Shown here: in pieces, positions 1,979-28,433 of the stretch
Layout: each line of letters starts with the position of its first letter
Position numbering within the stretch: the stretch's first letter is position 1
Source: a virus
DNA: 36,114 nucleotides
Virus record (IMG/VR): IMGVR_UViG_3300034284_001122
Location: 1 to 36,114 of that record
Strand: one strand, 5' to 3'
The notes under the pieces: model-generated
Databases searched by the model: none
What the model saw: the letters and a program-made list of their open reading frames with translations, nothing else
What the model was told of the DNA's origin: nothing
Made by a program: the position numbers and the translations under genes

Positions 1979-4900
1979 ATGGCCGTAATAAAGAAAACTC
2001 TTTTTGCTGAAAATTTAGATAAGTATAATACATTTGTAGTAGATACTGCTCCAAATAGTACTTACTTCAATGTAACAGAAATACCAGATGCATTTACTGG
2101 TGGTAAGAACGCATTCTTAATAGCAGGTTCAAAGGAATTGGTAGCTGATACTTTAGTTAAAATTGAAATTAAAGATGCAGCTGGAAACACCATATATCAC
2201 GAACCTGGTGAAGGCATAGTATCATCATCTATAAACGGAGAATCTTTTATTAGTGAATACTATGAGGGGGTATCAAAAGTTGTAGCGGTATATGTTTATC
2301 CAGATACAACCGCGTATGGTCCTTGTACAATTACAATATTAGGTGAATTAAGTTCATACTACGATGGTAATGGTTTATTAACACCAATACCAATTGATTG
2401 GCAAGGTACTTACAATGTAAAGTGGCAGAGAAGTGTTAATGTAAATCCTACATTGGCAAACACTACTAAAATTCGTTTTTATCGTAGACCTACTGCGAGT
2501 ATTACAGAAGTATTATCACCGATATACAGAATAGAAAGTGGTTCAAAAGTTGATTCTGGAATAAATCAATCATTTGCAGAAATTAAACTTTCACAATTAG
2601 AAACATTTGCAGGTGATGTAAAACGAGTAAAAGTATTTAGAACTTCTGAAGGAGATATTTCGGATTTTAATTTAATACAAGATATATTAGTAGAATCAAA
2701 AGAATTATTAACAACAACCCAATTAACAGGAAGTGTTATAGGTAATACTGGAACATTTACATCCGAAGTATTACCTTTATTTTGGAATACTGGCTCATTA
2801 ACTACGGAACTAGCATCTAGTAGAGTTGAAAGTGGATTAAAATTAAACGGAAGTGGGTTATTAACTTATTCACAATCGTTGGATATAAAAGCATCAAACA
2901 CGTATGAGTTAAATTTAGATGCGTTTTATTCATCATCTACCGCAAGTAATTTAGGAATATACATAAGCGGTTCCGATGGTGGTGATGTTTTAATTGGTAC
3001 ATTAAATGGAATAACTCCAACAAAAAATCTATCAGATACGGTTATTCCGTTTAAATTAGATTCCGATTTTCAAAGTGGTTCTTTATATTTTTCACAATCG
3101 CAAGGTGAATGGCATGTTGGAAATATAAGTTTAAGACTTTCCGAAGATACGGCATTTTCACCTGATGAAATCTCCTTTATTACTACAATGCCTACGGTAA
3201 TTGGTAATGAAACTTATAATTTTAAATTTGAATTTTATGATGTAAATAATAATTTTGTTCCAGTTGCAGTAACACAAAGTGCAAATTTTACAGGTGGAAC
3301 CGCAGGACAAGCCACTAAATTATTAACATTTGATTCAGATAGAACTGCGTTTAGATTTTCTACTGGTTCATTTGGTAATCCTGCATTTCAACAACTTCGA
3401 TTTAAGGTTTCCAAATCAAATTTATCGGGTTCAGTTACATACGCATCATCTGCATTTGATGTTGGTGGTAATTATATAGTACCCGCCTCCTATGCAGGAA
3501 CTTATCCTGGAACATTAACAAATACAAGTGATGCAGGTGCAACATTAACTATTGCAAATTTTAGTGGTAGTGTAGCATCTGTATTAGTTGGTTCAATTAT
3601 TTATACTGCATCTTGCGATGGGTTGGACCAATTTGAAACCGTATATAGGTTTGAAGATGGTGATAACGCACCTGGTGTTTTTGTAACATCTAATACAAAT
3701 CAATTTATTTATAAAGCAACAGATTTATCAATAAACCCATCGGGTCAAACAATAACAATCGAAGCTAAACGTAAGAATTTAGCATCGGCAACAACTCCAT
3801 TAACTGTAAATTCAGGAAGTGGTAAACCACCATTGACATTGGTATCTACTAACTCAACAAACGGTGTAGATACCTATACAATAGCTGGAACTGATTATTC
3901 CTTTGGAACGGGAGAGACTACATACTTCATTTCAGGTTCAGACCAATTTGGTAATCAATTTTCAGATGCAGTAACAATAACTCCTGTAAAAATATTAGAT
4001 GGATTATCCGCAACTCTCACAAATGATAATGCATCACTTCCAGCACTTTCAAACGGATTTGTAGCTAGTGGTTCATTCATATTGACAAGTGGTTCGGTGA
4101 CTGTTAAAGTGGGTAATGAGAGTATTTCATTTGATGATGATAACGATAGTGTTAGAGCAAATAATACGTTTGCCTTAACAAATTTAAGTGGAATTGGATG
4201 TACTCCAAATGGTGGAAATAATAGTAATCCAACAACAAACTCATACAGTATTACAAATCTTACTCAAGATTCGGGTTCATTGGATATAACAATTAGTTAT
4301 AAGGATGGAGCAGGTGATACAACTTCTATTATAAAAAACGTAACTTATACTAAAAATAAAAAAGCAGCACCTGTTTTAGCTATATCATCAACACCAAAAG
4401 ACCAAAGTGTAACTGCTAAATCAACAGGTGCACAAATTGATTCATTTTTAAATTCAACGATAGTTGTAAAGGAAACTTACAATGGCTCTACCATCACTTT
4501 ACCAGCAACATTAACTGCAACTAGAGTAGATACTGGTGGGAGTTTAACAGTAAATAATACAACTGGAGTAGTAACTTTGAGTAATCAAACTTTAGCGGAT
4601 GGAATAAATTCTACAACTGTAAATATAAGTGCAATTGTAACTGATTCTGAAGGAACAAGTAGAACTGTAACCGATACATTAAGTTTATCAAAAGTTAAAA
4701 AAGCAGTTCCATTGGTATTAATTTCTGCTTCACCTCAAGCGCAATCTGTATTGGCTAATGCAGCAGGAACGCAAACTGGAACTTTATCAAATGTAACTAT
4801 AAGTGCATTAGAAGGAACAACTAGTAGATTTACTTCTATGACCATTGCATCTACTTCAGGATTCTCAACTCCACCAACTGTTAGTAGTGCAACATTAACA

Positions 4901-6856
4901 ATGACATCTGCGGTAATGAATGCAGCAGAAGCATCGGTAACACTAACAGTAACACATACTGATAGTGAAGGTACGACTGGACAAACTCAAACGATAATTG
5001 TTAGAGCAACAAAAGTTCCTACTGGAGCAGCAGGGGCTAATGGTACAAATGGAACGAATGGTGCGACTGGGGGAGACGGGCCAGGTGTAGTGTTTAGAGG
5101 TCCTTGGAGTGCTGCAACAACTTACAATAGTATTAGCCAAGATGCAACACGTAAAGATGTAGTATTATATAGTGGAACTTATTACGCAACAAAAGCAAAT
5201 GCAACTGCTAACTTAAATAAACAGCCCAATACTCAAACTGCTTTTTGGGAATCTTTAGGTACTGATTCATTTTTTGTAGCTGCTGAAATGATAATATCTA
5301 AAGAATCGTATGTACAAAATACAATAAATGTTGGTACGAATACTTCTGGTAATGCTAATATTACTATTGCAGGTGGAAGTACATCTCCATATATTTCAAT
5401 TGGACAATCCACCCAAGGGTTTAATAATAATGGTATATTTATTGGAACTTCTTCAGGAGCTCAAAAATTATCTTTAAAATCTGCATCAAATTCATTAACT
5501 TGGGATGGAACAACTCTAAATATAGTTGGTAATTTAAGTGTGGGTAGTTCAGTTCCAAATTCGGTAGTAACAGGATTAGGAGGACTTGCAACTCAAAACA
5601 CCGTATCAACTGGACAAGTTACAGGATTGGGTGCTTTGGCAACATTAAGTACCGTAACAAATGCACAATTAGCAGCTAATGCAGTAGAAGCAGGAAATAT
5701 TGCAGCAAATGCAGTCACATCTGGTAAAATATCAGCAAACGCAGTAACGGCAGGTACAATTGCAGCAGGTGCAGTAACGGCAGGTACAATTGCAGCAAAT
5801 GCAGTAACTGCAGGTACAATTGCAGCTGGTTCTGTAACGGCAGATAAAATAACAGTAAGTGAATTATCCGCGTTAGGTGCTACGATTGGAGGTTGGTCAA
5901 TAAATTCAACAGTTATATCAAAAAGTACCGGTGCCGGTACTATTACTTTGGATTCTAGTAATAACAAAATTTTATTAAATGATGCATCAGCTACTAGGTT
6001 TGAAGTATCTACTGGAACATCAACAGACCCTGCATCGAATCCCCGCAGAACAACAATTAATAATGGTGGATTTATTGTAAGTACAGATTCAGAAAGGTAC
6101 TTTAGGCATAATACTGCAGGTGGATTACCTTTTTCTGGAAAATCTCTTGTATTTAATGATTCAAAAGGTGGATTACGAGTAGATGGCTTGTTTTTCAATT
6201 CACCATTAACATCTACGGATTTCTTTAAAACTTCAGCAGCTGCTGATGAAAATGATTCATTAAATACCACATATTGGTTGCCTAGAACCCAAGAGGCTAT
6301 GATTTATGATAGACCAGGTTCGACATATTCAGAAGGTTCTTTTCCAAATACAAGTCCATTAGTTCAAGGAGGTGGTGTATCAATTGGAACTTCAACATTT
6401 AGAGTTCATACTGGAACAGTTGGAGCAGATTCGGTACAACCATTAAGATTTAAAATTGATGATAGTGGGGATGTTCAAGTTATAAGAAATATACAATGTT
6501 ATCAGAACGTAATTGCGTATTATTCAGATAAAAGATTAAAAAATATTATTGGAAAAATTGAAAATCCATTAGATAAAATTCAAAAATTAAATGGAGTTTA
6601 TTATACTCAAAATGAAGTTGCAGAAAATCTTGGTTACGAAAAGAATGATACTAAACAAGTTGGTTTAATTGCTCAAGAAGTACAAGAAGTCCTACCCGAA
6701 ATTGTAAGTATAGCACCAATTGATAAAGATGGAAATGGTGGTTCAAGAACTGGTGAAGATTATTTAACTATTGATTATAGTAAAGTAGTTCCACTTTTAG
6801 TAGAGTGTATAAAAGAATTGAAAAGAGAAATTGAAGAATTAAAAAAGAATAAATAA
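1979..6856 (+). CDS. Tail fibre/receptor-binding protein with C-terminal S74 intramolecular chaperone (1625 aa)
   Basis: The N-terminal half is a Ser/Thr/Gly-rich series of beta-sandwich-like domains, including two tandem Ig-like units about 112 residues apart (start near residues 794 and 906; each opens with Lys-Lys-Ala then SxxP). A collagen-like Gly-X-Y stretch lies at 1016-1036. It is followed by a Trp/Tyr-rich module (FRGPWSAATTY) resembling small carbohydrate-binding domains. Residues 1225-1294 are seven 10-residue repeats of the AVTAGTIAAN type. The last about 110 residues are a peptidase S74 domain: YSDKRLKN at 1515-1522 has Ser1516 and Lys1521 five apart, the spacing of the Ser-Lys dyad in endosialidase chaperones, and a C-terminal coiled coil follows. 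In that family the chaperone drives trimer folding and cuts itself off just before the Ser. The stop overlaps the next start by one base (TAATG). Confidence 0.88.
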   Translation: MAVIKKTLFAENLDKYNTFVVDTAPNSTYFNVTEIPDAFTGGKNAFLIAGSKELVADTLVKIEIKDAAGNTIYHEPGEGIVSSSINGESFISEYYEGVSKVVAVYVYPDTTAYGPCTITILGELSSYYDGNGLLTPIPIDWQGTYNVKWQRSVNVNPTLANTTKIRFYRRPTASITEVLSPIYRIESGSKVDSGINQSFAEIKLSQLETFAGDVKRVKVFRTSEGDISDFNLIQDILVESKELLTTTQLTGSVIGNTGTFTSEVLPLFWNTGSLTTELASSRVESGLKLNGSGLLTYSQSLDIKASNTYELNLDAFYSSSTASNLGIYISGSDGGDVLIGTLNGITPTKNLSDTVIPFKLDSDFQSGSLYFSQSQGEWHVGNISLRLSEDTAFSPDEISFITTMPTVIGNETYNFKFEFYDVNNNFVPVAVTQSANFTGGTAGQATKLLTFDSDRTAFRFSTGSFGNPAFQQLRFKVSKSNLSGSVTYASSAFDVGGNYIVPASYAGTYPGTLTNTSDAGATLTIANFSGSVASVLVGSIIYTASCDGLDQFETVYRFEDGDNAPGVFVTSNTNQFIYKATDLSINPSGQTITIEAKRKNLASATTPLTVNSGSGKPPLTLVSTNSTNGVDTYTIAGTDYSFGTGETTYFISGSDQFGNQFSDAVTITPVKILDGLSATLTNDNASLPALSNGFVASGSFILTSGSVTVKVGNESISFDDDNDSVRANNTFALTNLSGIGCTPNGGNNSNPTTNSYSITNLTQDSGSLDITISYKDGAGDTTSIIKNVTYTKNKKAAPVLAISSTPKDQSVTAKSTGAQIDSFLNSTIVVKETYNGSTITLPATLTATRVDTGGSLTVNNTTGVVTLSNQTLADGINSTTVNISAIVTDSEGTSRTVTDTLSLSKVKKAVPLVLISASPQAQSVLANAAGTQTGTLSNVTISALEGTTSRFTSMTIASTSGFSTPPTVSSATLTMTSAVMNAAEASVTLTVTHTDSEGTTGQTQTIIVRATKVPTGAAGANGTNGTNGATGGDGPGVVFRGPWSAATTYNSISQDATRKDVVLYSGTYYATKANATANLNKQPNTQTAFWESLGTDSFFVAAEMIISKESYVQNTINVGTNTSGNANITIAGGSTSPYISIGQSTQGFNNNGIFIGTSSGAQKLSLKSASNSLTWDGTTLNIVGNLSVGSSVPNSVVTGLGGLATQNTVSTGQVTGLGALATLSTVTNAQLAANAVEAGNIAANAVTSGKISANAVTAGTIAAGAVTAGTIAANAVTAGTIAAGSVTADKITVSELSALGATIGGWSINSTVISKSTGAGTITLDSSNNKILLNDASATRFEVSTGTSTDPASNPRRTTINNGGFIVSTDSERYFRHNTAGGLPFSGKSLVFNDSKGGLRVDGLFFNSPLTSTDFFKTSAAADENDSLNTTYWLPRTQEAMIYDRPGSTYSEGSFPNTSPLVQGGGVSIGTSTFRVHTGTVGADSVQPLRFKIDDSGDVQVIRNIQCYQNVIAYYSDKRLKNIIGKIENPLDKIQKLNGVYYTQNEVAENLGYEKNDTKQVGLIAQEVQEVLPEIVSIAPIDKDGNGGSRTGEDYLTIDYSKVVPLLVECIKELKREIEELKKNK
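5651..5860 (+). repeat. Seven tandem 30-base in-frame repeats in the tail fibre gene
   Basis: Seven contiguous 30-base units start at 5651, 5681, 5711, 5741, 5771, 5801 and 5831. The central three are nearly identical (they begin gcagtaac and contain caggtacaat); the outer ones are diverged. Each unit encodes ten residues of the AVTAGTIAAN type, a pattern common in the shafts of phage tail proteins. In-frame copy-number change by recombination or slippage would alter shaft length without breaking the frame. Confidence 0.85.
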
Positions 6857-9369: not shown

Positions 9370-10128
9370 ATGCTACAAGATTTACAATACATAAAAAATA
9401 CTTTAACAAATAATATAGAATTCAATGAATATCAGGAACAGGAAGATGCTCCAGTTCCTTATAGATGGTCTCATGGTGCAACTGATTTACATTTAGGTGA
9501 TGGTTTAATTGTGTATTCTCTCATTCAGTATATGAGAGCAAAAACTTGTGTATGTTTGGGTAGTGGTGGTGGATTTATTCCAAGATTAATGACACAGGCT
9601 AGATATGATTTGTATAATCAGAAAATATTTGAAGGAAATCCTGATTTAAATTGGGGAGATATTGGAGTTACTTATGTAGTCGATGCAATGAATGGAATTG
9701 GTGGTAATGTAAACTGGTTCAGAGAAGAATCTTTTTTTAGAAGAACATTTCATCCAAGAATTATTAATAAAACAACAGAAGAAGCATTTCATAATTATTT
9801 TGTTCTTAATGATATTCAGATAGATTATTTACATATAGATGCAGGGCATAGTTATGAGAATGTAAAAGAAGATTTTGAATTGTATTCTCAATTATTATCA
9901 CCAAATGGAATTATATCAATTCACGATACCGACCCTAATTATGCAGATAGTTACATCGTTACAAACGAAGTAAAAGACAGAGGTGATTTTGATGATTGGC
10001 ATGGACCAATTGTATTTGCAAAAGAATTAAAGGATAATCCAAATTGGGAAGTATTTGACCTTTTTAATTTTGGTATTCAAAAAAATAAACCAGCATCAAC
10101 AGGATTAACATTAGTTAAAAGAAAATGA
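9370..10128 (+). CDS. Class I SAM-dependent methyltransferase (252 aa)
   Basis: A Rossmann SAM-binding loop is present (VCLGSGGGF at 61-69). A later HIDAGHSYENVKEDF segment and ISIHD (183-187) match the pattern of the Methyltransf_24 group of small-molecule and sugar methyltransferases, in which the Asp and His near the end of strand 4 help bind metal or substrate. In a glycan cluster it most likely O-methylates a sugar, either as nucleotide sugar or as the terminal residue (inference). Its stop overlaps the next start as ATGA, so the two are coupled. Confidence 0.75.
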   Translation: MLQDLQYIKNTLTNNIEFNEYQEQEDAPVPYRWSHGATDLHLGDGLIVYSLIQYMRAKTCVCLGSGGGFIPRLMTQARYDLYNQKIFEGNPDLNWGDIGVTYVVDAMNGIGGNVNWFREESFFRRTFHPRIINKTTEEAFHNYFVLNDIQIDYLHIDAGHSYENVKEDFELYSQLLSPNGIISIHDTDPNYADSYIVTNEVKDRGDFDDWHGPIVFAKELKDNPNWEVFDLFNFGIQKNKPASTGLTLVKRK

Positions 10129-10967
10129 TTAGATTAGTTACAGTAACAGGCAGTAGAACAAACACTTTATATCACATGTTAAACCATTATTCTCATTTAG
10201 TAGATGAGATGTGTGTGGTTGTATATGAATGGGAAGGTGTTAGTACATACAATGATGTATCAGATATTGTTTCACAATTTTCAAATGCGAAAATAGTAAT
10301 AAGAGTAATTGGAGAAAAATACAATTGGGAAAAGGTAACCGAATTATACAATAAAGCTAAATCAGAACATCCAAATGATTGGTGGGTAATATCAGACGAT
10401 GACGAATTTCATTTATATTCAAAACCATTATCAGAAATAGTAGCAGATTGTAATACAAACGGATGGGAATTAGTAAGAGGTGGATTCATAGATAGAATCG
10501 GAGAAGATGGTGAATTTAGTAAAATAAATCAAACTGATAATATATTTGAGCAATTTCCGTATGCTGGATTTTTCAGATATCCAATGAGTGAAGCGTGTCC
10601 AAACAAAATTTGTATAGTAAAAGGAAATATTGAATTAACATCAGGACAACATTATGCTAAAATTGATGGACAAACAACTTGGAAATGGATGGGATGGAAT
10701 CACCCATTAATTGCACCCGTTGATGAGTATAATGTTCAGGTTCATCATTTTAAATGGGATTCTACTTGTATAGATAGAATTAAATCAGTAGCAGATATTA
10801 GAAAAGATTATGCATTTTCAGATGAATATTTAAAAATGTATCAATCATTAAGAAGTAACAATTTTGAAATTGATATTACAAATTGGAATATGGAATATTG
10901 CCCAACTGCAAATTACGAAAATTATAAAAATTGGGATAAATTATTTAAAAAAATTATATCTATATAA
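10125..10967 (+). CDS. GT2/GT92-like glycosyltransferase (280 aa)
   Basis: It opens with a GT-A-like strand (LVTVTGSRTNTLYHML), then has a strong acidic cluster after a hydrophobic strand (WWVISDDDEF, Asp91-Glu94) as the metal-binding DxD-type motif, and HHFKW at 207-211. An HxxKW-type motif near the end followed by an arginine-rich helix is common in GT2/GT92-like proteins from phage and bacterial polysaccharide clusters. It is coupled to the methyltransferase by ATGA. Sugar specificity is unknown. Confidence 0.65.
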   Translation: MIRLVTVTGSRTNTLYHMLNHYSHLVDEMCVVVYEWEGVSTYNDVSDIVSQFSNAKIVIRVIGEKYNWEKVTELYNKAKSEHPNDWWVISDDDEFHLYSKPLSEIVADCNTNGWELVRGGFIDRIGEDGEFSKINQTDNIFEQFPYAGFFRYPMSEACPNKICIVKGNIELTSGQHYAKIDGQTTWKWMGWNHPLIAPVDEYNVQVHHFKWDSTCIDRIKSVADIRKDYAFSDEYLKMYQSLRSNNFEIDITNWNMEYCPTANYENYKNWDKLFKKIISI

Positions 10968-10981
10968 AATAGGTTATTAAA

Positions 10982-12439
10982 ATGGTGAATAATAAAAAGT
11001 TATCGATTATAGTACCGTACTCCAATCGTTTGCAAGACCTATATACTTTTGTGGGTCACATGGAATACTTTTTAAAAGATAAAACGGATTACGAAATTCA
11101 TTTCATAGAACAAATTGATGCAGATGTTTATTTCAATTATGGAAAGTTATGTAATATTGGTGCATCCATAACACAAAATCGTTCAGATTATTATGTATTC
11201 CATGATATAGATATTTTACCTAAACAAGAATCGTGCAATTACAATTTTGAATACTATCCAACTCACCTTTGTCCAAATTTAAAACCATATCCACATTGGA
11301 TAGGTGGTGCTTTTAAAATTACAAAAGAAAATTTCTTCGAAGTAAATGGATTTAGTAATGATTATTGGGGAGGTTCTTTTCATTGGATAGATTTTTTGTA
11401 TAGATTAAAAAAACACAAATTATTATCTGCAAAAAGATTTTTTACTAAAAATATCTATAAACCGCATGTTTTAACAAATGTAAAGGAGGTAAATAAGTAT
11501 ATTAAAAAAACAATATACCCCTTTGATTCAAATGAAAATAATTGTGTATTTGTAAGAGCAAACAAAACAACCGATTATATTTTTGAAGATTCATTTACAA
11601 TATCAATGAATGTTTTTATTAATGATAATCAATCAAATGATGCTTGTATTATTGGAAAACAAGGATATGATATGGGAATTTTTATTATGAATAATGAAGG
11701 AATTGTAGTTCAATTGTGGGATGATAATAAGAATTTATATCAAATGTGGTATCCACATAAATCCCATACCAATCAATGGATAAACCTATCATTAAAGATT
11801 GATATGGATAAGAAAAAAGCAGGTTTATATATCGATGGTAAAATTGTGCAAACATTGGATAAATTACCAAAACATTTAATGGATTTTAAAGGAAAAGATT
11901 TATGGATTGGTAGTTTGGCATTTAATAATTCATTTAGTGGTAAAATATGTAACTTATTACTATTTGATTACCCGTTGGCAGAATCTGAAATAATAAAATT
12001 ATATACAGATGGATATACAACGATAAATGGTACAATAACTACAAATTTTGAAGCAGTTATAAATGTACCATTTGATAAAAAATTTGGAGATTTTTATGTA
12101 GATGATTCTAAAACATTTTCAAATCCAAGAATAGTATCAACTGGAATACATCAGGAAATATATTCCGAAGAATTGAATCTATCTTATGAATTTGATATGC
12201 CAGAACAATCAAATGGACGGTTTGAAATCTTGGAAAATTCAAAAAAATTTACTAAATTAGAGAACTATTATTGGACAAAAACAGATGAAATATTTGAAGA
12301 AAATAAAAATATTTTCTTTTATGAAATTGCGACTGGTATATTAGATACTGATAAATTTGGTTTAAATACATTATCATACGATTTAATATCAACCGAAGAA
12401 ATTAAAACAGGAGTTTATAAACATCAAATTAAAATATAA
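10982..12439 (+). CDS. GT7 (beta-1,4-galactosyltransferase-like) with nested LamG domain, degenerate active site (485 aa)
   Basis: Residues 1-145 follow the GT7 core: VPYSNR (11-16), FNYGKLCNIG (51-60), HDIDILP (74-80), a Gly-Gly loop (108-109) and NGFSNDYWG (122-130). Where the two paralogues have WGWGFEDDD or WDWGMEDDD, this protein reads GGSFHWIDFLYR (130-141), so the acidic catalytic/acceptor-binding cluster is gone. A LamG/concanavalin-like lectin domain spans about 185-345. The C-terminus still holds a GT7-tail-like KFGLNTLSY (458-466), but with Phe in place of Asp. The His that binds metal in beta4GalT enzymes appears replaced (ENSKK region). It is likely a non-catalytic or altered paralogue, perhaps a binding subunit (inference). 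Confidence 0.7.
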   Translation: MVNNKKLSIIVPYSNRLQDLYTFVGHMEYFLKDKTDYEIHFIEQIDADVYFNYGKLCNIGASITQNRSDYYVFHDIDILPKQESCNYNFEYYPTHLCPNLKPYPHWIGGAFKITKENFFEVNGFSNDYWGGSFHWIDFLYRLKKHKLLSAKRFFTKNIYKPHVLTNVKEVNKYIKKTIYPFDSNENNCVFVRANKTTDYIFEDSFTISMNVFINDNQSNDACIIGKQGYDMGIFIMNNEGIVVQLWDDNKNLYQMWYPHKSHTNQWINLSLKIDMDKKKAGLYIDGKIVQTLDKLPKHLMDFKGKDLWIGSLAFNNSFSGKICNLLLFDYPLAESEIIKLYTDGYTTINGTITTNFEAVINVPFDKKFGDFYVDDSKTFSNPRIVSTGIHQEIYSEELNLSYEFDMPEQSNGRFEILENSKKFTKLENYYWTKTDEIFEENKNIFFYEIATGILDTDKFGLNTLSYDLISTEEIKTGVYKHQIKI

Positions 12440-12445
12440 AAATAA

Positions 12446-12787
12446 ATGGCAAAAATTAAGTTACAGTCGGATACAACATCTTCTACAGACGAAAATTTAG
12501 AATCGTTTGTATTAGAAACAAGAAAAGTAAAAGCATTGGAAAAAATTGCAAACTCATTAGATGCACTTACTATTTGGTTTGAAGAAATTAACAAATCAGA
12601 GTGGAGTGATAGAGTTGCGTATTATCTGTATGAATTCTATAATATTGCAAAAGAAAATGGACAATCATTAAATTCAGGAAAACCTTTTGCAGGAAATGTT
12701 CCAACAGAACCCGCTCAAACCGAAGAAGGGGCCGAATTGCCACCACCTCGTAAAGTAAGACCTAAAAAAGATATTGAAAAAGTGTAA
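12446..12787 (+). CDS. Hypothetical protein (113 aa)
   Basis: No family was recognised. Residues 20-75 are predicted mainly helical (a Lys/Glu/Leu-rich helix, then a Trp/Tyr-rich segment WSDRVAYYLYEFYNIA). The C-terminal third is a disordered Pro/Glu stretch with a basic end (PPPRKVRPKK). It sits 6 bases after one GT7-LamG gene and 5 bases before the next, with no overlap in other frames, so it is a real gene of the operon. It could be an accessory or scaffolding protein for the neighbouring glycosyltransferases, but nothing in the sequence proves that. Confidence 0.6.
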   Translation: MAKIKLQSDTTSSTDENLESFVLETRKVKALEKIANSLDALTIWFEEINKSEWSDRVAYYLYEFYNIAKENGQSLNSGKPFAGNVPTEPAQTEEGAELPPPRKVRPKKDIEKV

Positions 12788-12792
12788 TCTAA

Positions 12793-14223
12793 ATGAAATT
12801 AGGAATAATTGTACCATATAGAGATAGAGAATCACATTTAACCAGATTTGGTGAAATAATATCTTCATATTTAAAATCCAAAAAAATTAAACACGAAATT
12901 ATTATAGTTGAACAAACTGATGATAAGCCGTTTAATAGGGGAAAGTTATTAAATATTGGGTATATTAAAGCAAAAGAATTAGGATGTGGGTATATTGTAT
13001 TTCATGATGTAGATATGTTACCAATTGAGGTTGATTATTCTTATTCTGAATTACCTATGCATCTTGCAACTAATTTTGAATTAGAATATGATAAATCAAA
13101 AAACTTGTCATTTGATGAATATTTTGGTGGTGTAACTATGTTTAGTTCTGATACATTTGAACGAATAAATGGATATTCCAATTTATATTGGGGATGGGGG
13201 TTTGAAGATGATGACCTTTTATTTAGAGTTAGTCAAAAAAACATTCCATTGGATTCAAAAATTATTGGTAAAAATGAAACCAAAAAATTATATGGATTAT
13301 CTTTTAGCGGAAACGATTCTTATATTAAAATACCAAAAAAGGAATTATTAGATTTTGAAAAAGATACATCGATATTAATAACATTTAAACCAGATGAAAT
13401 AATATCAAATCCAAATAACGATTACGATGAATATACGGTATTTTCAATACCTGGATACGATACTAATATAAGTTATAATTCTTTTAAAAGATATAAAGTA
13501 GATTTTTGGGATGATAGTGATACCTGCACTTCTATTAATTCAGAAATATTAACTAATCATTTTACTCAAATTTGTTTAACATTTGATTATAAAAAAAACC
13601 AAATTTTTTTTTATAAAGATGGTGAATTGGTAGGTACGGAAAAACTAAATCATGCTCCAAAAGATTATTCAGATGAAGAATATTTTTATTTAGGAGTTGG
13701 TTCACCTGAAAGAGATTTTAACCAAAACTTTTTTTATGGAATGATTTCTGAATTCGCAATATATGATTGTAAACTGAAAGATAAAGAAATTTCAGTATTA
13801 GCAGATAATGTTTTAGAAAATTCTTTATTAGAAAATTTTAGAGCGTATAAATCCGCAGAGTATTTAACATTATATTATGATTTTAAATTTTATAAAGAAA
13901 ATATATTATTAGATTTGTCTTTTAATAATAATCATGGTGAAATTAATAATTGTCATTTCATAAAATCACATGAATCATTGGGTAGAGAAATGGCAGTTCC
14001 ATATAGAAGAAAATCTTTATTTAAATTATTATCTCATAAAACAAATAGTTGGAATGAGAAAAATTGGGTTCATAGAGAAACTCGTATAAACCAATTAAGA
14101 TTTTTAAATCAAGTTAAAACTAAATTATATAACACAGATAACGATGGTTTAAATAGTTGTTTATATCAAGTATTAAATGATGTATCAATGAATAACTATC
14201 ATCATCTATCAGTATTATTGTAG
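12793..14223 (+). CDS. GT7 beta-1,4-galactosyltransferase-like enzyme with nested LamG domain (476 aa)
   Basis: All GT7 motifs are intact: VPYRDR (7-12), FNRGKLLNIG (47-56), HDVDMLP (71-77, the metal DxD), FGG (111-113), NGYSNLYWGWGFEDDD (126-141). A LamG/concanavalin-like domain follows at about 165-395 (paired beta strands with YIKIPKKEL, FYKDGELVGT and a closing YYDF). The GT7 fold then resumes: SHK at 414-416, where His415 matches the third metal ligand of beta4GalT, and DGLNSCLYQVL at 451-461, matching the conserved C-terminal DGLNSLTYQV-type motif of animal enzymes. The lectin is therefore inserted within the catalytic domain. It probably transfers a hexose from a UDP-sugar; the acceptor is unknown. 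The next gene starts one base after the stop. Confidence 0.82.
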   Translation: MKLGIIVPYRDRESHLTRFGEIISSYLKSKKIKHEIIIVEQTDDKPFNRGKLLNIGYIKAKELGCGYIVFHDVDMLPIEVDYSYSELPMHLATNFELEYDKSKNLSFDEYFGGVTMFSSDTFERINGYSNLYWGWGFEDDDLLFRVSQKNIPLDSKIIGKNETKKLYGLSFSGNDSYIKIPKKELLDFEKDTSILITFKPDEIISNPNNDYDEYTVFSIPGYDTNISYNSFKRYKVDFWDDSDTCTSINSEILTNHFTQICLTFDYKKNQIFFYKDGELVGTEKLNHAPKDYSDEEYFYLGVGSPERDFNQNFFYGMISEFAIYDCKLKDKEISVLADNVLENSLLENFRAYKSAEYLTLYYDFKFYKENILLDLSFNNNHGEINNCHFIKSHESLGREMAVPYRRKSLFKLLSHKTNSWNEKNWVHRETRINQLRFLNQVKTKLYNTDNDGLNSCLYQVLNDVSMNNYHHLSVLL

Positions 14224-14224
14224 A

Positions 14225-15691
14225 ATGGGACATAAGTTAGGAGTTTGCGTACCATATAGAAACAGAGAGGAACACATGAATCAATTTGTTCCATGGGTTA
14301 CTAATTTCTTAACAAAGAAAGGAATTGACCATACCATTTATATTGCACATCAATGCGATGAATATTTATTCAACAGAGGATTGATGAAAAACATTGCTGC
14401 AAAGCACGCAATTGATGATGGGTGTGATTACATCGTTTGGCATGATATTGATATGGTGCCGGAAGATGCTAGTTGTGATTATTCATATCCAGAAGAAACC
14501 CCTCAACATATAGCAGTTCGTATTTCACAATCCGAATATCAATTAAAATATCAGGAATACTTTGGTGGTGCGGTTGTTTTTACAAAAGAACAAGTTTTAG
14601 CAACTAATGGGTATTCAAATGATTATTGGGATTGGGGTATGGAGGATGATGACCTTTTTTGGAGATGTGTTATGGAAGGGTATGTGGATAAACAAACGAT
14701 TGATTTTGCTAAAGTAAAAAATGTGGCAGTATTCGATGGTAAAAGTTCATATATTAAAATACCATCTTCTGAAAAAAATAGAATAGCAATATCAAATTCA
14801 CATACATTATCAGTTTTAGTAAAAGCAGACCAGCAGTTAGAAAAAGTTCCTATTTGGTTAATTGGTGATTCAAATAGAAAATTTGTAGAATACCCAATAT
14901 TTAGAAAACCAGGATATGATTGGGGGATATCATTTAATAATAGTAGAGCATATACTGGTATGATGTGGAACGCACATAGAGAACACATATATCAATGGTT
15001 CAAGCGTTATGAAGGTGAGTGGACTTGGGTAACAATGGTAGTTGATGATTTAGAAAAGAAAATGCATTTTTATTTAAATGGAAATGAGAGTGATGCTAGA
15101 AACGGAACTGGTACACAATCGCCAGTTGAATACAGCTATAATTTAAAAAGATATGGTACAGAGCCATTTTACATAGGACACACATCTACCGTAGAACCAT
15201 TTGAACCACATGCCTTTTTTAAAGGCGAAATTGCCGATATTAAATTATGGAATAGAGCATTATCAAGCGAAGATGTTTCAAAATTACATAAAGAATATTC
15301 AACAGATGGTTTAATATTACATTATAATTTTGATGAAATAACTGATGGTAAATTTGTAATAGACCAGGCTGAAGTAAATGATGGTGTAATGTATAATGTT
15401 AGTATTGAAGAAAGAGAAATACAAATACCGCATGTAGTATTACCTCATAGAAGAGATGGTAAATTTTTCTGTCTACCACACGAAACTGAAGGTTTAATTA
15501 AGGAAGGTGGCATTGAAAAGTGGGCTAAAGGAGAAACAACTGCCAGAAATGAAAGACGATATGTATTAGAAATGCAACAGGGTAAAATCGATTATAAAAA
15601 AGATGGTATAAATAATATGAAATATAAACATATTAGTACTAAAACTATTTTTGATAAACACAAATTAATAAATGTTTATTGTTTAAAATAA
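14225..15691 (+). CDS. GT7 beta-1,4-galactosyltransferase-like enzyme with nested LamG domain (488 aa)
   Basis: This is a second intact paralogue. It has VPYRNR (9-14), FNRGLMKNIA (49-58), HDIDMVP (73-79), FGG (113-115) and NGYSNDYWDWGMEDDD (128-143). A LamG domain lies at about 162-400, with FDGKSSYIKIP at its start, a HFYLNGNE hairpin, a KLWNRALSSED strand-turn and the closing LHYNFDE. The GT7 tail returns with FFCLPHE (His419 as probable metal ligand) and DGINNMKY (460-467). Compared with its neighbour, WGWG is WDWG. The three GT7-LamG genes are diverged paralogues from tandem duplication. The differing lectin surfaces may bind different acceptor glycans (inference). Confidence 0.82.
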   Translation: MGHKLGVCVPYRNREEHMNQFVPWVTNFLTKKGIDHTIYIAHQCDEYLFNRGLMKNIAAKHAIDDGCDYIVWHDIDMVPEDASCDYSYPEETPQHIAVRISQSEYQLKYQEYFGGAVVFTKEQVLATNGYSNDYWDWGMEDDDLFWRCVMEGYVDKQTIDFAKVKNVAVFDGKSSYIKIPSSEKNRIAISNSHTLSVLVKADQQLEKVPIWLIGDSNRKFVEYPIFRKPGYDWGISFNNSRAYTGMMWNAHREHIYQWFKRYEGEWTWVTMVVDDLEKKMHFYLNGNESDARNGTGTQSPVEYSYNLKRYGTEPFYIGHTSTVEPFEPHAFFKGEIADIKLWNRALSSEDVSKLHKEYSTDGLILHYNFDEITDGKFVIDQAEVNDGVMYNVSIEEREIQIPHVVLPHRRDGKFFCLPHETEGLIKEGGIEKWAKGETTARNERRYVLEMQQGKIDYKKDGINNMKYKHISTKTIFDKHKLINVYCLK

Positions 15692-15695
15692 AAAT

Positions 15696-17111
15696 ATGGC
15701 AGAAGATAAAACTTATAGCGAAAATCCAATCTATTTAAAAGTAAAGGATGAACTTAACGCAGTTGGTCCAGGTATGTGTGCTGCAAAATGGACACAAGTA
15801 ACATTGCAATTACAAAGTGGACATAATCACTCATGCCACCACCCACAGACACATAAAATTTCAGAAACAGAAATTGCACGAAACCCATCTGCACTTCACA
15901 ATACGAGATACAAAAAACTCCGTAGAAAAGAAATGTTGCAAGGAGCAAGACCAACTGAATGTGATTATTGTTGGAAAGTGGAAGATAATTCAGACCGTTT
16001 TTCGGATAGAATTTTTAAATCAGGTGAAAGTTGGTCTTATCCATTCATTAACGATATCATTAAATCTGATTGGAGAGAAGATTTTAATCCAAAATATGTA
16101 GAGGTTGCATTTTCAAATGCATGTAATTTTAAATGTTCATATTGTGGGCCAGCATATAGTTCAACTTGGATGGAAGAAATTGAAAAACATGGAGCATATC
16201 CAACATTGGATAATTTCAATTCTGTTGATTGGATGAAAAATGAAGATAAATTACCTATTCCTCATAAAGAACATAATCCATACGTTGATGCGTTTTGGAA
16301 ATGGTGGCCTGATTTGTATAAAGATTTACATACTTTTAGAATTACTGGTGGTGAACCGTTGTTGTCGAAGGATACATGGGGTGTATTGGATTACATTATA
16401 AATCACCCAAATCCAAATACTGAATTAAAATTAGCAATTAATTCAAATTTAGGAGTTCCTGATAAATTAATAGATAAACTTATTGAAAAAATAAAAAGAA
16501 TAGAGGATGAGGGTAGAGCAAAAGAAATTGTAATATTTACATCTACAGATACATGGGGTGAGCAAGCAGAATATATTCGTACTGGATTAGAATTCAATAA
16601 ATTTTGGGATAACGTAAATAAAATTCTTACACAATGTCCAAGAACTATTGTAACATTTATGTCTACATATAATGCGTTAAGTGTTTTTAATTATGAACAA
16701 TTAATTCATAATATTTACACATTAAAAGATGTATACGCATCTACTGATAGATACTGGAATTCTGCAGTGTTTTTAGATTCATCATATTTACGATATCCGT
16801 TACATCAGACGGTTCAAGTACTTCCATTTGATTACGCCAAATATATTACGGACCAAGCCAAATTAATTACATATTATGCGGCACCATCATTTGACCCAAA
16901 ACATATTGGATATTCTGATGTTGAGGTTCAAAAAGTAAAAAGAATTTATGATTGGATGGTTTCTCCCCAGGATGCGGGACAACAAATGAAAAATAGATAT
17001 AGTTTTTATCAATATTTTTCAAATCACGATAAGAGAAGAGGGACTGATTTTTGTAAAACATTTCCAGAATTAGAAGAATTTTATCACTTTTGTTCAACAA
17101 TAAAAATATGA
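15696..17111 (+). CDS. Radical SAM protein, twitch-domain type (471 aa)
   Basis: The radical SAM 4Fe-4S motif CNFKCSYC (C143, C147, C150) and the glycine motif ITGGEPLL (216-223) are present. About 50 residues upstream lie more cysteines, including CxxC in ECDYCWKVED (C89, C92) plus C28 and C47 (HSCHHP). This N-terminal Cys/His set with a following radical SAM core resembles proteins annotated as twitch-domain-containing radical SAM, which occur in large marine phages. They generate a 5'-deoxyadenosyl radical; the substrate is unknown for this group. Four bases separate it from the GT7 gene, and its TGA overlaps the next ATG. Sugar or peptide modification is plausible from the context only. 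Confidence 0.82.
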   Translation: MAEDKTYSENPIYLKVKDELNAVGPGMCAAKWTQVTLQLQSGHNHSCHHPQTHKISETEIARNPSALHNTRYKKLRRKEMLQGARPTECDYCWKVEDNSDRFSDRIFKSGESWSYPFINDIIKSDWREDFNPKYVEVAFSNACNFKCSYCGPAYSSTWMEEIEKHGAYPTLDNFNSVDWMKNEDKLPIPHKEHNPYVDAFWKWWPDLYKDLHTFRITGGEPLLSKDTWGVLDYIINHPNPNTELKLAINSNLGVPDKLIDKLIEKIKRIEDEGRAKEIVIFTSTDTWGEQAEYIRTGLEFNKFWDNVNKILTQCPRTIVTFMSTYNALSVFNYEQLIHNIYTLKDVYASTDRYWNSAVFLDSSYLRYPLHQTVQVLPFDYAKYITDQAKLITYYAAPSFDPKHIGYSDVEVQKVKRIYDWMVSPQDAGQQMKNRYSFYQYFSNHDKRRGTDFCKTFPELEEFYHFCSTIKI

Positions 17112-17869
17112 GTTTAAGAGTAAACAAAGATAATATATTTTTCGTTTTACCGGAAAGTAGATATTCGGTATCACGTAGAATAGACAAATATATGGATGAA
17201 GATTTTTCTTTATTTATTAAATTTAAAGTATACCCAGATTGTGTACTTAAAGATATACAAACTTTTGCTATTGCTAGAAATGGTATGCATTCTGGTATTT
17301 CAACATATAAAGATGAATTAGATAATATATCAATTTGCTTTACATATTGGCTTACAAAAGAAGTAAATGGTAAAAAAGAAGTGTATCCAAAACACATTTT
17401 TACTGGATTACTACCACATGAAGTTAATGAGTTTAACGAATATACTATGATTTGTGACCATTTTGTAGAACGAAACATTAAATGTTATAAAAATGGAGAA
17501 TTAGTGGGGGTTATTAATTTTGAAGAAGGAGAAAAAGTTAGTTATGAGCACGCATTTTATTGGTTTGGATGTGGTAGTATGATTGGACCAGAAGAGCATC
17601 AGGCTATCGGAGACTTTGAATTTGAATTAGCATTTGTGTTAAATATTAAATTAAAAATTGACGAAATTCAAGATTTTGTTGATAATTTTAAAACCGATTA
17701 CTCGCATGTTGTATATAATGGGTTGAGAAAACTAAATTATAACTACCCATTTAGAGATAATTTCGCATTCCTATGTGATTTTGATAATCACAATCGATAT
17801 AAAGTATGGGATGTTAGTTTTAGCGGAAACTATCCACAATTTTATATAGAAAAAAACATTTATTTCTAA
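17108..17869 (+). CDS. Stand-alone LamG/concanavalin-like lectin domain protein (253 aa)
   Basis: The start chosen is the ATG at 17108, which forms ATGA with the radical SAM stop; an upstream in-frame TTG at 17090 would sit inside that gene. The protein shows the LamG strand pattern of its GT7 neighbours: FSLFIKFKVYP, an IKCYKNGELVGVINF hairpin, FYWFGCGS, and the helix-turn IKLKIDEIQDFV, then a closing FLCDFDNHNRYKVWD. There is no glycosyltransferase core and no secretion signal. It may be a freed lectin module that acts in trans with the enzymes of the cluster (inference). Its stop TAA shares its last base with the next ATG. Confidence 0.65.
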   Translation: MSLRVNKDNIFFVLPESRYSVSRRIDKYMDEDFSLFIKFKVYPDCVLKDIQTFAIARNGMHSGISTYKDELDNISICFTYWLTKEVNGKKEVYPKHIFTGLLPHEVNEFNEYTMICDHFVERNIKCYKNGELVGVINFEEGEKVSYEHAFYWFGCGSMIGPEEHQAIGDFEFELAFVLNIKLKIDEIQDFVDNFKTDYSHVVYNGLRKLNYNYPFRDNFAFLCDFDNHNRYKVWDVSFSGNYPQFYIEKNIYF

Positions 17870-19373: not shown

Positions 19374-20153
19374 ATGACAATACATTTTTTTGGTTGTAGT
19401 TTTACCGAAGGTGGAGGATTGGATAATTTTGATTATTACAATTTTATTACAGGTAAAAATTATAATATAAGTGATAATATTTCAGAGCAAGCTGAAGAAA
19501 TTAGGATGTATAAAGAATCCAATAGATACTCTGCAATAGTTGGTAATATTTTAAATGTAGAAACTAAAAATTATGCAATTGGGGCCAATTCAAATGAAGC
19601 AATTTTAAAAAAATTGTTTGAAGTAGTAAACGAATCAACAACTAAATCTGATGATATTTTTATAGTACAACCATCATTTTATGCTAGAAAATTTTATTGG
19701 TATGAACCATTTCAACAATTTTTTAGTGTAAACGCTTCTGAAGTAGGAGATTGGCCATATAGAAATAAGGATGAATGGATGCCATTACATCAACTCCATA
19801 ATTTAAATTTAAAATATTGTCATAATGAAGAATATGAATTTAATAAATTCTTAAATAATATGGAATTATATAATTCTTATTTTAAAGAAAAAAATATAAA
19901 ATTGTTTTGGGCTCCTTGGGTTGATTTATCATTTAACACTATTCCTGAAAAATTAGATATTGATAATATTACTTACTTAAAAAAATATAAAAATATAATA
20001 TTATATGAAAATAAATCTATGGGTAGATATATTTGTGATAATAAATTATTAATAAGAGATGTATTTAAAAAATCAAATGATACACATAAATCACTAGAGG
20101 GACATAGATTAATTGGAAATAAAATAGCAGAATACTTAAAAGACAAATTATGA
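19374..20153 (+). CDS. SGNH-like hydrolase or transferase (259 aa)
   Basis: The ATG at 19374 was chosen, one base after the RmlC-like stop; an earlier in-frame start at 19308 would lie within that gene. The N-terminus has a block I-like GCSFTEGGG (7-15, Ser at 9). The C-terminus has NDTHKSLEGHRLIGNKIAEYL, the block V Asp-x-His followed by the usual amphipathic helix. A GANSNE segment may be the oxyanion block. Related proteins hydrolyse or transfer acyl groups on sugars. The stop overlaps the next gene as ATGA. It belongs with two other GCSFT proteins in the window. Confidence 0.7.
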   Translation: MTIHFFGCSFTEGGGLDNFDYYNFITGKNYNISDNISEQAEEIRMYKESNRYSAIVGNILNVETKNYAIGANSNEAILKKLFEVVNESTTKSDDIFIVQPSFYARKFYWYEPFQQFFSVNASEVGDWPYRNKDEWMPLHQLHNLNLKYCHNEEYEFNKFLNNMELYNSYFKEKNIKLFWAPWVDLSFNTIPEKLDIDNITYLKKYKNIILYENKSMGRYICDNKLLIRDVFKKSNDTHKSLEGHRLIGNKIAEYLKDKL

Positions 20154-20785
20154 TACAGAATTTAGAAAAATATAAAAGTTTAAATGAGGTAGACACCACA
20201 TTTACACCTCAAGATTTGATTGATTTTGAAAATTTAATTGTATCTCATTGGGAAGAGGGTAAAATTAGAGGACCGATTCATCTATCAAATGGAAATGAAG
20301 AACAACTCATAGAGATATTCAAAAAAATATCAGCAAATGATTGGGTGTTTTCAACTTGGAGGTCTCATTATCATGCACTTTTACATGGTATTTCTCCAAA
20401 ATGGATTGAAGATGAAATTCTCAATGGTAAATCAATTACCCTATGTAATATAGATGAAAAATTTTATGCATCTGCTATTGTAGGTGGAACTCTATCTATC
20501 GCATTGGGTGTAGCAATGGGAATTAAAGCCAAAGGTAGTGATGAAAAAGTTTGGTGTTTTATTGGTGATATGAGTTTTGAAAGTGGGTTATTTTATGAAG
20601 TTCATAAATATGCTAGAAATTTTGATTTACCGATTGTATTTGTTGTAGAAGATAATGGAGTATCTACTTACACCCCAACCGAAGCAACTTGGAATGTTAA
20701 AAGAAATATACCATCCGATGTAATACATTATACATACGAATCAAAATATCCTCACTATGGAACTGGAAAATGGATAGTATTTTAA
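20150..20785 (+). CDS. Minimal thiamine-diphosphate E1-alpha-like (PP-domain) subunit (211 aa)
   Basis: Motifs follow E1 alpha subunits of 2-oxoacid dehydrogenases: STWRSHYHALLHG (68-80), AIVGGTLSIALGVAMGIKAKG (109-129), and the cofactor motif from GDM (139-141) to EDN (167-169), the GDG-x(n)-NN type that binds Mg2+ and the diphosphate. Usual E1 alpha proteins are well over 300 residues; this one ends soon after the cofactor site. A matching PYR-domain subunit is encoded at 27903-28433. Together they would make a stripped-down ThDP enzyme, perhaps transferring a two-carbon unit to a sugar in the manner of transketolase-like or YerE-like enzymes (inference). Confidence 0.8.
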   Translation: MIQNLEKYKSLNEVDTTFTPQDLIDFENLIVSHWEEGKIRGPIHLSNGNEEQLIEIFKKISANDWVFSTWRSHYHALLHGISPKWIEDEILNGKSITLCNIDEKFYASAIVGGTLSIALGVAMGIKAKGSDEKVWCFIGDMSFESGLFYEVHKYARNFDLPIVFVVEDNGVSTYTPTEATWNVKRNIPSDVIHYTYESKYPHYGTGKWIVF

Positions 20786-26908: not shown

Positions 26909-27901
26909 ATGAAAAAAACAGACAAAATTTTAGTTACAGGAGCAAGTGGATTTATAGGTTCACATTTATTAAGGTTATTACATGCAAAGGGTTATAGAAA
27001 CCTTCGGTCAACATCATTTAGCAGAGATTTGAGAAATGATTTTGAAGGAACATCAGAAGTAGAACACATTAAAGGAGATTTGCAAAATGCAGAGTTTTGT
27101 GAATTGATTAGTAAAGATGTGGATGTGGTATTTCATTGTGCAGCAAATACTTCAAATGCATTAGATACTAAATTCAATCCACTATTGCACGTTACTCCAA
27201 ATGTAGAGATGAATGTGAATTTAATGGAACAAAGTTGGAAAAACAAAGTTCGTAAATTCTTATTTATATCATCAAATACAACTTATCCAGATATGGGTAC
27301 TGAATTTTGTACTGAAGATATTAATGTTCATGCAACACCAATGTTACCTGTTTATAAAGCAGTTGGTGGTATGAAAAGATATGGTGAAATGTTATGTGAT
27401 TTCTTTTCAAATCAGATTCATGAACCAATGCAATGTTTGATTGTTAGACCTTCAAACGCATTTGGACCTAATGATAAGTTTGATTTTGAAAAGTGCCACG
27501 TTACTCCTGCAAACATCCGTAAGGTAGCAGATGGATTGAATCCTATTCCAGTTTGGGGTGATGGTACTGAAGTAAGAGATTTACTACACGTTGAAGATAT
27601 GGCAGATGGTTTTATATTTGTAGCAGAAAACAATGATACATACGATATCTTTAATGTATGTTATGGTGAGGGATTTACAGTAAACGAAACACTTGCAACG
27701 ATTAAAGAATTGGATAACAATACAAATCCAATTGAATATGTCAATAATAAAGCACCAATGATTCCTATCAGATTATTGTCTTCTAAAAAGATTAATGATT
27801 TAGGGTGGAAACCAAAAAGAAATTTAACAGAAGCCCTAAAAGAAACTATTGAGTGGTATAAAGCTAACAAACATCAATATAACCCAGATTCAAGACCATA
27901 A
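26909..27901 (+). CDS. NAD-dependent epimerase/reductase, GDP-fucose-synthase-like (330 aa)
   Basis: VTGASGFIGSH (9-19) is the cofactor loop. FISSNTTYP (119-127) and VRPSNAFGPNDKFDFEK follow GDP-fucose synthase-like SDRs. RDLLHVEDMADGF is the conserved substrate-domain stretch. As in the SDR at 24780-25778, the YxxxK motif is not standard: the sequence is VYKAVGGMKRYGE (148-160), with Lys156 and a Val four residues before it; the nearest Tyr is 149, seven residues away. These two SDRs differ in this respect from the canonical one at 17869-18834. One base separates it from the ThDP PYR subunit gene. Confidence 0.78.
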   Translation: MKKTDKILVTGASGFIGSHLLRLLHAKGYRNLRSTSFSRDLRNDFEGTSEVEHIKGDLQNAEFCELISKDVDVVFHCAANTSNALDTKFNPLLHVTPNVEMNVNLMEQSWKNKVRKFLFISSNTTYPDMGTEFCTEDINVHATPMLPVYKAVGGMKRYGEMLCDFFSNQIHEPMQCLIVRPSNAFGPNDKFDFEKCHVTPANIRKVADGLNPIPVWGDGTEVRDLLHVEDMADGFIFVAENNDTYDIFNVCYGEGFTVNETLATIKELDNNTNPIEYVNNKAPMIPIRLLSSKKINDLGWKPKRNLTEALKETIEWYKANKHQYNPDSRP

Positions 27902-27902
27902 T

Positions 27903-28433
27903 ATGGAAATAACTGAATATAAAAAAGCAATATCATCTGCTATGACTGAATTAGGTAAAGCAGATGATGTAGTTTTTATAGGACAACAAATAGTTTATCC
28001 TGGTAATCCTATGAGTACCACATTAACGGATGTTCCAAAAGAAAAAATGATTGAAGTTCCAGTTATGGAAGAAACTCAAATGGGTATGAGTTTAGGAATG
28101 GCAATGACTGGGAAAACGGTTGTATCATTTTATCCAAGATGGGATTTTATAATATCCGCTACAAATCAATTAGTAAATCATTTAGATAAATATCAATTGA
28201 TGACGGGAAAAAATGTAGATATACTTATTAGAGTGGGTAAGGGTTCGGATGAACCATTGGATCCTGGTCATCAACACAAAGCAAATTATTTTGAAGAATT
28301 TAAATCTATTTGTAAAAATATTACATTCTTTGATTTGAAAACAGCTGAAGAAGTTGAAACTGCATATAATTATTTTAATACAAACGGAGGTATAGTTATA
28401 TTAGTGGAATATCCTCAATTATATAATAAATAA
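27903..28433 (+). CDS. Minimal thiamine-diphosphate E1-beta-like (PYR-domain) subunit (176 aa)
   Basis: The ATG at 27903 is taken as start (two bases after the SDR stop); an upstream in-frame start at 27849 lies inside the SDR gene. EVPVMEETQMGMSLGMAMTG (51-70) contains the catalytic Glu that activates the thiamine ring. YPRWDFIISATNQLVNH and ILIRVGKG match transketolase PYR domains and E1 beta subunits. The usual C-terminal transketolase-C domain, about 130 residues, is absent. Its natural partner is the PP-domain subunit at 20150-20785. Eight genes and part of the cluster lie between the two halves, which is unusual because these subunits are normally adjacent. Confidence 0.8.
   Translation: MEITEYKKAISSAMTELGKADDVVFIGQQIVYPGNPMSTTLTDVPKEKMIEVPVMEETQMGMSLGMAMTGKTVVSFYPRWDFIISATNQLVNHLDKYQLMTGKNVDILIRVGKGSDEPLDPGHQHKANYFEEFKSICKNITFFDLKTAEEVETAYNYFNTNGGIVILVEYPQLYNK

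Follow-up and report, generated by a model that had tools for sequence, protein, structure and literature searches.

Three adjacent genes on the plus strand of IMG/VR virus record IMGVR_UViG_3300034284_001122 encode proteins with motifs of glycosyltransferase (GT) family GT7 on both sides of a LamG domain. The record is a fragment, and its full 36,114-base stretch, called the window here, supplies all position numbers. The first open reading frame (ORF), ORF1 (10982..12439, 485 residues), encodes a degenerate GT7 with a nested LamG and is probably a pseudoenzyme. ORF2 (12793..14223, 476 residues) and ORF3 (14225..15691, 488 residues) each encode a GT7 with a nested LamG. In all three, Pfam places Glyco_transf_7N, then Glyco_transf_7C and then Laminin_G_3, above the curated cut-offs, with the LamG match at residues 202-337 in ORF1, 173-334 in ORF2 and 171-352 in ORF3 (E 3.7e-14). 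In ORF3, 7N covers residues 3-86 (E 1.5e-17) and 7C covers residues 95-152 (E 3.5e-18). NCBIfam has no family for ORF2 or ORF3.

Each protein consists of a GT7 N-part, an insert and a GT7 C-part. The N-part of ORF3 (residues 3-153; 14231..14683) contains the DxD motif at residues 74-76 and EDDD, the xED motif of this protein, at residues 140-143. Like that of ORF2, it matches the B4GALT enzymes of the PDB (B4GALT1 and B4GALT7 in the case of ORF3) with an E value of 1e-30 in phmmer, and Foldseek agrees. The insert is a LamG/concanavalin A (ConA)-like jelly roll of about residues 157-402 (14693..15430), which was recognized by Pfam and whose borders are set by relatives that lack it. The C-part (residues 403-488; 15431..15688), identified by profile search and hhalign, carries RRxGxFxxLxH, NERRY and DGINNMKY. 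In ORF2, the insert spans about residues 155-402 (13255..13998; Pfam and aligned sequences) and the C-part residues 403-476 (13999..14220; profile search and hhalign). The same order of N-part, LamG and C-part is found in all 153 non-redundant full-length relatives, which is far beyond chance. An assembly chimera or a chance fusion in one contig, for which nothing was found, is refuted by this recurrence, since three paralogues and hundreds of relatives from independent contigs share the layout and the insert is in every one of the 153; its probability is negligible.

Insertion site and return of the GT7 chain

The insertion site is seen in comparison with GT7 proteins that have no LamG. The bacterial set of these (L170-L220 except L177) was picked by patterns in the N-part only, and insert-less GT7 proteins are also found in phages (L301, L306, L308 and others). 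In the bacterial example L179, the chain runs EDTDIVKRCLVEGVPMARRKGTFQSLPH...RN...DGLSTLEY. In ORF3, EDDDLFWRCVMEGYVDKQ is followed by about 245 residues and then by PHRRDGKFFCLPH...RNERRY...DGINNMKY. With these insert-less relatives, the position of the empty site is fixed with an uncertainty of only a few residues. Wherever the return pattern was found, it follows EDxD at a distance of 13-18 residues or after a full insert (150 or more), with nothing between, and the insert is 225-260 residues long in 75 aligned sequences. The GT7 chain of ORF3 resumes at P407-x-R-R-x-G-x-F-x-x-L-x-H419. Because it returns here, the LamG lies between the catalytic EDDD (xED) and His419 (15479..15481), which by alignment is the metal-ligand C-terminal His (C-His) of GT7 and is invariant in 131 of 131 ORF2/ORF3-class proteins. 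This is not the appended layout of the GALNT and GnT-IVa type, in which the lectin lies outside the catalytic domain.

An earlier, sequence-only reading of this DNA had located the late motifs correctly (DGLNSCLYQ at residue 451, DGINNMKY at 460 and FGLNTLSY at 459), and its claim that a GT7 segment returns after the lectin holds, with the start of that segment moved about 50 residues ahead of the DGLNS-like motif. It had also put the lectin after both the EDDD and the metal-His segments; the lectin does follow EDDD, but the metal-ligand His419 comes after the LamG. The motifs VPYRxR, FNRG and HDxD, which it ascribed to every protein, are all present in ORF2 and ORF3; ORF1 has VPYSNR, FNYG and HDID.

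Since the bacterial loci were chosen by N-part patterns only, searching them with a profile built only from the post-LamG segment (52 sequences) provides an independent test of the C-part. Among 3,008 six-frame ORFs of these loci there are 45 matches (best 3.6e-9), all of them in GT7 genes and none of them decoys. Aligned with the insert-less GT7 proteins by hhalign, the profile reaches 98.3% and an E value of 1.3e-14 over 76 collinear columns. In 103 ORF2/ORF3-class sequences, P407, H419, N442 and G461 are invariant together with key residues of the N-part. The proteins thus belong to GT7 by a homologous C-terminal segment as well, as the sequence-only reading had proposed. Against the PDB alone, the profile finds B4GALT1 collinearly but without significance (E 0.17), which would suit a LamG that is merely appended, with a DGLNS-like segment resembling GT7 by chance. 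The homology of the C-part, its invariant residues and the empty site in relatives refute this explanation, which we consider extremely improbable. Arenavirus glycoproteins matched in the same PDB search were dismissed as chance. On these comparisons the nested layout is genuine, and the earlier conclusion that the LamG is inserted rather than appended is borne out.

The AlphaFold2 model of ORF3, built from a 103-sequence alignment, has a predicted local distance difference test score (pLDDT) of 94.3 and a predicted template modelling score (pTM) of 0.87, with all five models at 93-94; the ORF1 model reaches 88.1 and 0.82, respectively. Long strands run into (residues 154-171) and out of (residues 393-407) the LamG of ORF3. 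Beyond it lie a strand (413-416), a helix (437-450) and two further strands (467-475 and 479-486), in the order that we take to be expected of a GT7 C-part. Homology and the confidence of the model suggest that this tail packs on the GT7 core. In Foldseek, the N-part of ORF3 superimposes on B4GALT7 and B4GALT1 (E about 1e-13 to 1e-11) with root-mean-square deviations of mostly 1.2-2.4 Å. Its LamG matches pentraxins, PAPP-A and a Bacteroides carbohydrate-binding protein (BACOVA_03559), with similar results for ORF1, and the insert is therefore a LamG domain by fold as well as by sequence (Laminin_G_3). The pentraxin matches, like those to neurotoxin-binding domains, are read as a shared jelly-roll fold only. 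No target with both domains is among the best 50 in the PDB and viral models. By eye, the end of the inserted LamG (13795-13998 in ORF2, YYDFKFYKENILLDLSFNNNHGEINN; 15281-15430 in ORF3) resembles the first strand of many bacterial LamG modules, relative to which the inserted LamG may be circularly permuted.

Catalytic residues and the ORF1 paralogue

The ORF2 and ORF3 classes have the DxD, xED and C-His of GT7. All 131 proteins of these classes carry D74 and D76 (DxD), E140, D141 and H419, and 124 of them also carry D142. Tyr112, also invariant in these classes, aligns in our comparison with Tyr289 of B4GALT1, which governs donor choice in favour of galactose over N-acetylgalactosamine. The ORF1 class has Tyr for Arg51 in 25 of 25 members, keeps xED only in part and has lost the C-His (H419) in half of its members. 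In the window's own ORF1, E140, D141 and H419 of ORF3 are replaced by His, Trp and Asn, respectively, and SFHWID stands in the place of EDDD, so that xED and C-His are both missing and DxD is kept. A paralogue that lacks catalytic residues is also a feature of CHSY-CHPF-like pairs, and ORF1 is probably a pseudoenzyme comparable to CHPF beside CHSY. The decay of the ORF1 class would fit the idea that the GT7-LamG proteins at large have given up transfer and merely bind glycans or nucleotide sugars. That idea is improbable, since the DxD, the Glu-Asp of xED and the C-His are intact throughout the ORF2/ORF3-class proteins.

Distribution, descent and gene surroundings

Scans of IMG/VR with single proteins gave 171 and 178 relatives, and a scan with an alignment gave at least 556, possibly including insert-less GT7 proteins. 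Protein searches with ORF2 and ORF3 found no match in 50,697 deposited phage records. A search of 84,980 species genomes found the LamG form only on seven contigs of metagenome-assembled genomes (L164-L169 and L177), 3-66 kb long, which are probably phage contigs that were mis-binned with bacteria or derived from infected cells. The bins that hold L164-L169 are assigned to Pelagibacterales, Gammaproteobacteria, Flavobacteriales, Fibrobacter and others. T4 Gp23 was identified in every one of the ten large related contigs (109-287 kb; E 1e-63 to 1e-78), each of which has two or three GT7 genes. Judged from these larger relatives of the 36-kb window, the carriers appear to be a widespread group of T4-like water phages.

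A tree of the GT7 cores and a tree of the LamG domains recover largely the same ORF1, ORF2 and ORF3 classes, and in the latter the inserted LamGs stand apart from the stand-alone LamG of the same cassette (support 99/99). For these two reasons, the insert most likely preceded the split of the paralogues. A single insertion is favoured over two, but not proved. The LamG-bearing cores fall on one side of a branch with weak support (35/15), and an alternative tree that brings the ORF2 class closer to insert-less GT7 is not rejected (approximately unbiased test, p-AU 0.388). Members of the Pelagibacteraceae (L207-L217) themselves encode an insert-less GT7 in which FNRG is replaced by FNYG, the form found in the ORF1 class, or by FNLG; these proteins are a possible host counterpart.

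The three genes belong to a cassette in which all the other members named here also lie on the plus strand. Ahead of them is a GT2-like gene (10125..10967), recognized by a weak Pfam match only (Glyco_tranf_2_4) and with relatives in 148 of 160 loci. Behind them is a twitch-domain radical S-adenosylmethionine (SAM) gene (15696..17111; NF033640, 349.5 bits), which adjoins the LamG-GT7 genes in 76 of 80 loci and whose product may act on a sugar or a fibre peptide. A stand-alone LamG-like protein without a Pfam match (17108..17869) follows directly and has relatives in 60 of 160 loci. The insert-less phage GT7 genes that were examined have neither a GT2-like nor a radical-SAM gene nearby (0 of 34). 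Upstream of the cassette is a tail-fibre gene with an S74 chaperone (1979-6856), and downstream are nucleotide-sugar genes, including epimerases, a dTDP-sugar 3,5-epimerase and the halves of a thiamine pyrophosphate (TPP)-dependent enzyme. These halves (20150-20785 and 27849-28433; E1-alpha-like and transketolase-pyrimidine-like) lie 7 kb apart amid the sugar epimerases and are possibly one unusual-sugar enzyme. A 113-residue ORF between ORF1 and ORF2 (12446-12787) is conserved in 39 of 160 loci. On the minus strand, opposite to the cassette, an ORF at 1260-1874 resembles GDSL hydrolases (PF13472, E 2.5e-6, below its cut-off). In pelagimyophages, glycosyltransferases and radical-SAM genes are likewise found in a hypervariable region beside the tail fibres, and the authors read the glycosyltransferases as modifiers of the host O-chain (PMC7029224).

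Proposed function and comparison with known systems

ORF2 and ORF3 would be metal-dependent, inverting GT-A transferases of the beta-1,4-galactosyltransferase kind, probably with a UDP-galactose-like donor. The LamG sits after the EDDD-bearing helix and before the strand with the metal-ligand His, so that the active site would be complete only once the chain has passed through the LamG and re-entered the GT7 fold, and the two connecting strands would tie the lectin-like domain to the root of the substrate-closing lid. In that position, by analogy, the LamG may hold or select the acceptor, which could be a glycosylated protein or a glycan under construction, beside the active site. ORF1 may be a non-catalytic partner, and the cassette as a whole may decorate the host surface, or the fibres of the phage itself, with a phage-specified glycan. 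The proposal that ORF2 and ORF3 are beta-galactosyltransferase-like GT7 enzymes with a built-in acceptor-holding LamG has, in our judgement, an even chance of being correct. Their surroundings of sugar genes count for it, and carbohydrate-binding domains that steer GT-A enzymes provide precedents (PMC9296478, PMC11254600, PMC4432651). Within each class, nearly all pairs of proteins differ more in the LamG than in the core (mean identities, LamG versus core, of 47 versus 67, 36 versus 53 and 33 versus 48% in the three classes), which fits a specificity part.

Three considerations weigh on the other side. The acceptor-holding role is argued by analogy, because no known GT7 is so arranged; the faster change of the LamG could instead reflect relaxed constraint; and LamG domains often bind proteins. 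The main rival explanation is that the nested LamG is a protein-protein adaptor or oligomerization module which binds no sugar and either docks the transferase on a target such as the tail fibre or baseplate or joins the paralogues to each other. The two or three paralogues always stand side by side, a stand-alone LamG is present within the cassette, and the degenerate paralogue is retained, as in CHSY-CHPF pairs with their structural inactive chain (PMC12748766). Even so, the sugar-biosynthesis genes around the cassette and the place of the LamG beside the active site suit acceptor handling at least equally well, and we regard an adaptor as a serious but doubtful alternative. A bolder form of the acceptor-holding proposal, which we think unlikely, makes the paralogues a processive polymerizing complex in which ORF1 is a dead scaffold and ORF2 and ORF3 are the transferases, with nested LamGs that hold on to the lengthening chain and follow the motion of the GT7 lid. 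Such a complex would have its acceptor grip inside the catalytic fold, diversifying between phages faster than the catalytic core.

Lectin-type domains beside GT-A enzymes are already known in appended form, and a nested GT7 layout seems to be undescribed; the literature searched, with partial journal coverage and hence as a weak negative, contains no described GT7 with a LamG or other globular domain between xED and C-His. If the LamG selects the acceptor, the family offers hundreds of natural variants of a specificity module, with insert-less relatives as controls and a probably dead paralogue. It also provides a defined set of enzymes with which to study how uncultivated T4-like phages rewrite surface glycans.

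The closest known relatives are B4GALT1 and B4GALT7 (CAZy GT7), which share with ORF2 and ORF3 a collinear N-part with DxD and xED and a C-part with the metal His and a DGLNS-like motif. They differ in having no insert between xED and C-His, in their Golgi membrane anchor, where the phage proteins are soluble, and in that their activity is established. The insert-less bacterial and phage proteins (L170-L217, L301, L306 and others) have the same motif order as the LamG form, with RRxGxFxxLxH right after the EDxD helix; in place of the insert of 225-260 residues they have about 13-18. B4GALNT3, also of GT7, has a putative carbohydrate-binding beta domain, PA14, that is needed for activity and is modelled near the donor site (PMC11254600); this domain is not a LamG and, by our reading, is attached outside the catalytic fold rather than nested between xED and C-His. 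GALNT (GT27) and GnT-IVa (GT54) likewise combine a GT-A enzyme with a lectin that guides acceptor use (PMC4432651, PMC9296478), but their lectins are appended at the C-terminus and have other folds (beta-trefoil and CBM32). PGAP4 (GT109) has a GT-A fold split by an internal insertion (PMC5785973), yet it belongs to another family and its insert is a pair of membrane helices rather than a globular lectin-like domain. CHSY-CHPF pairs an active GT7 with a scaffold GT7 that has lost the donor-binding residues and the C-His, much as ORF1 stands beside ORF2 and ORF3 (PMC12748766). CHSY and CHPF are GT31-GT7 fusions without LamG, and ORF1 differs from that scaffold partner in keeping its DxD; the phage proteins may form a comparable complex. 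GT-A enzymes are described as owing gains in acceptor specificity to variation in beta3-alphaC, in beta6-beta7 and in the tail after beta8, three variable regions in all (PMC7185993). In our mapping, the LamG insert lies in none of these but between the helix of the catalytic residues and the strand of the metal His, where it adds a whole domain. If it selects the acceptor, the best-studied fold among galactosyltransferases would contain a natural module for specificity.

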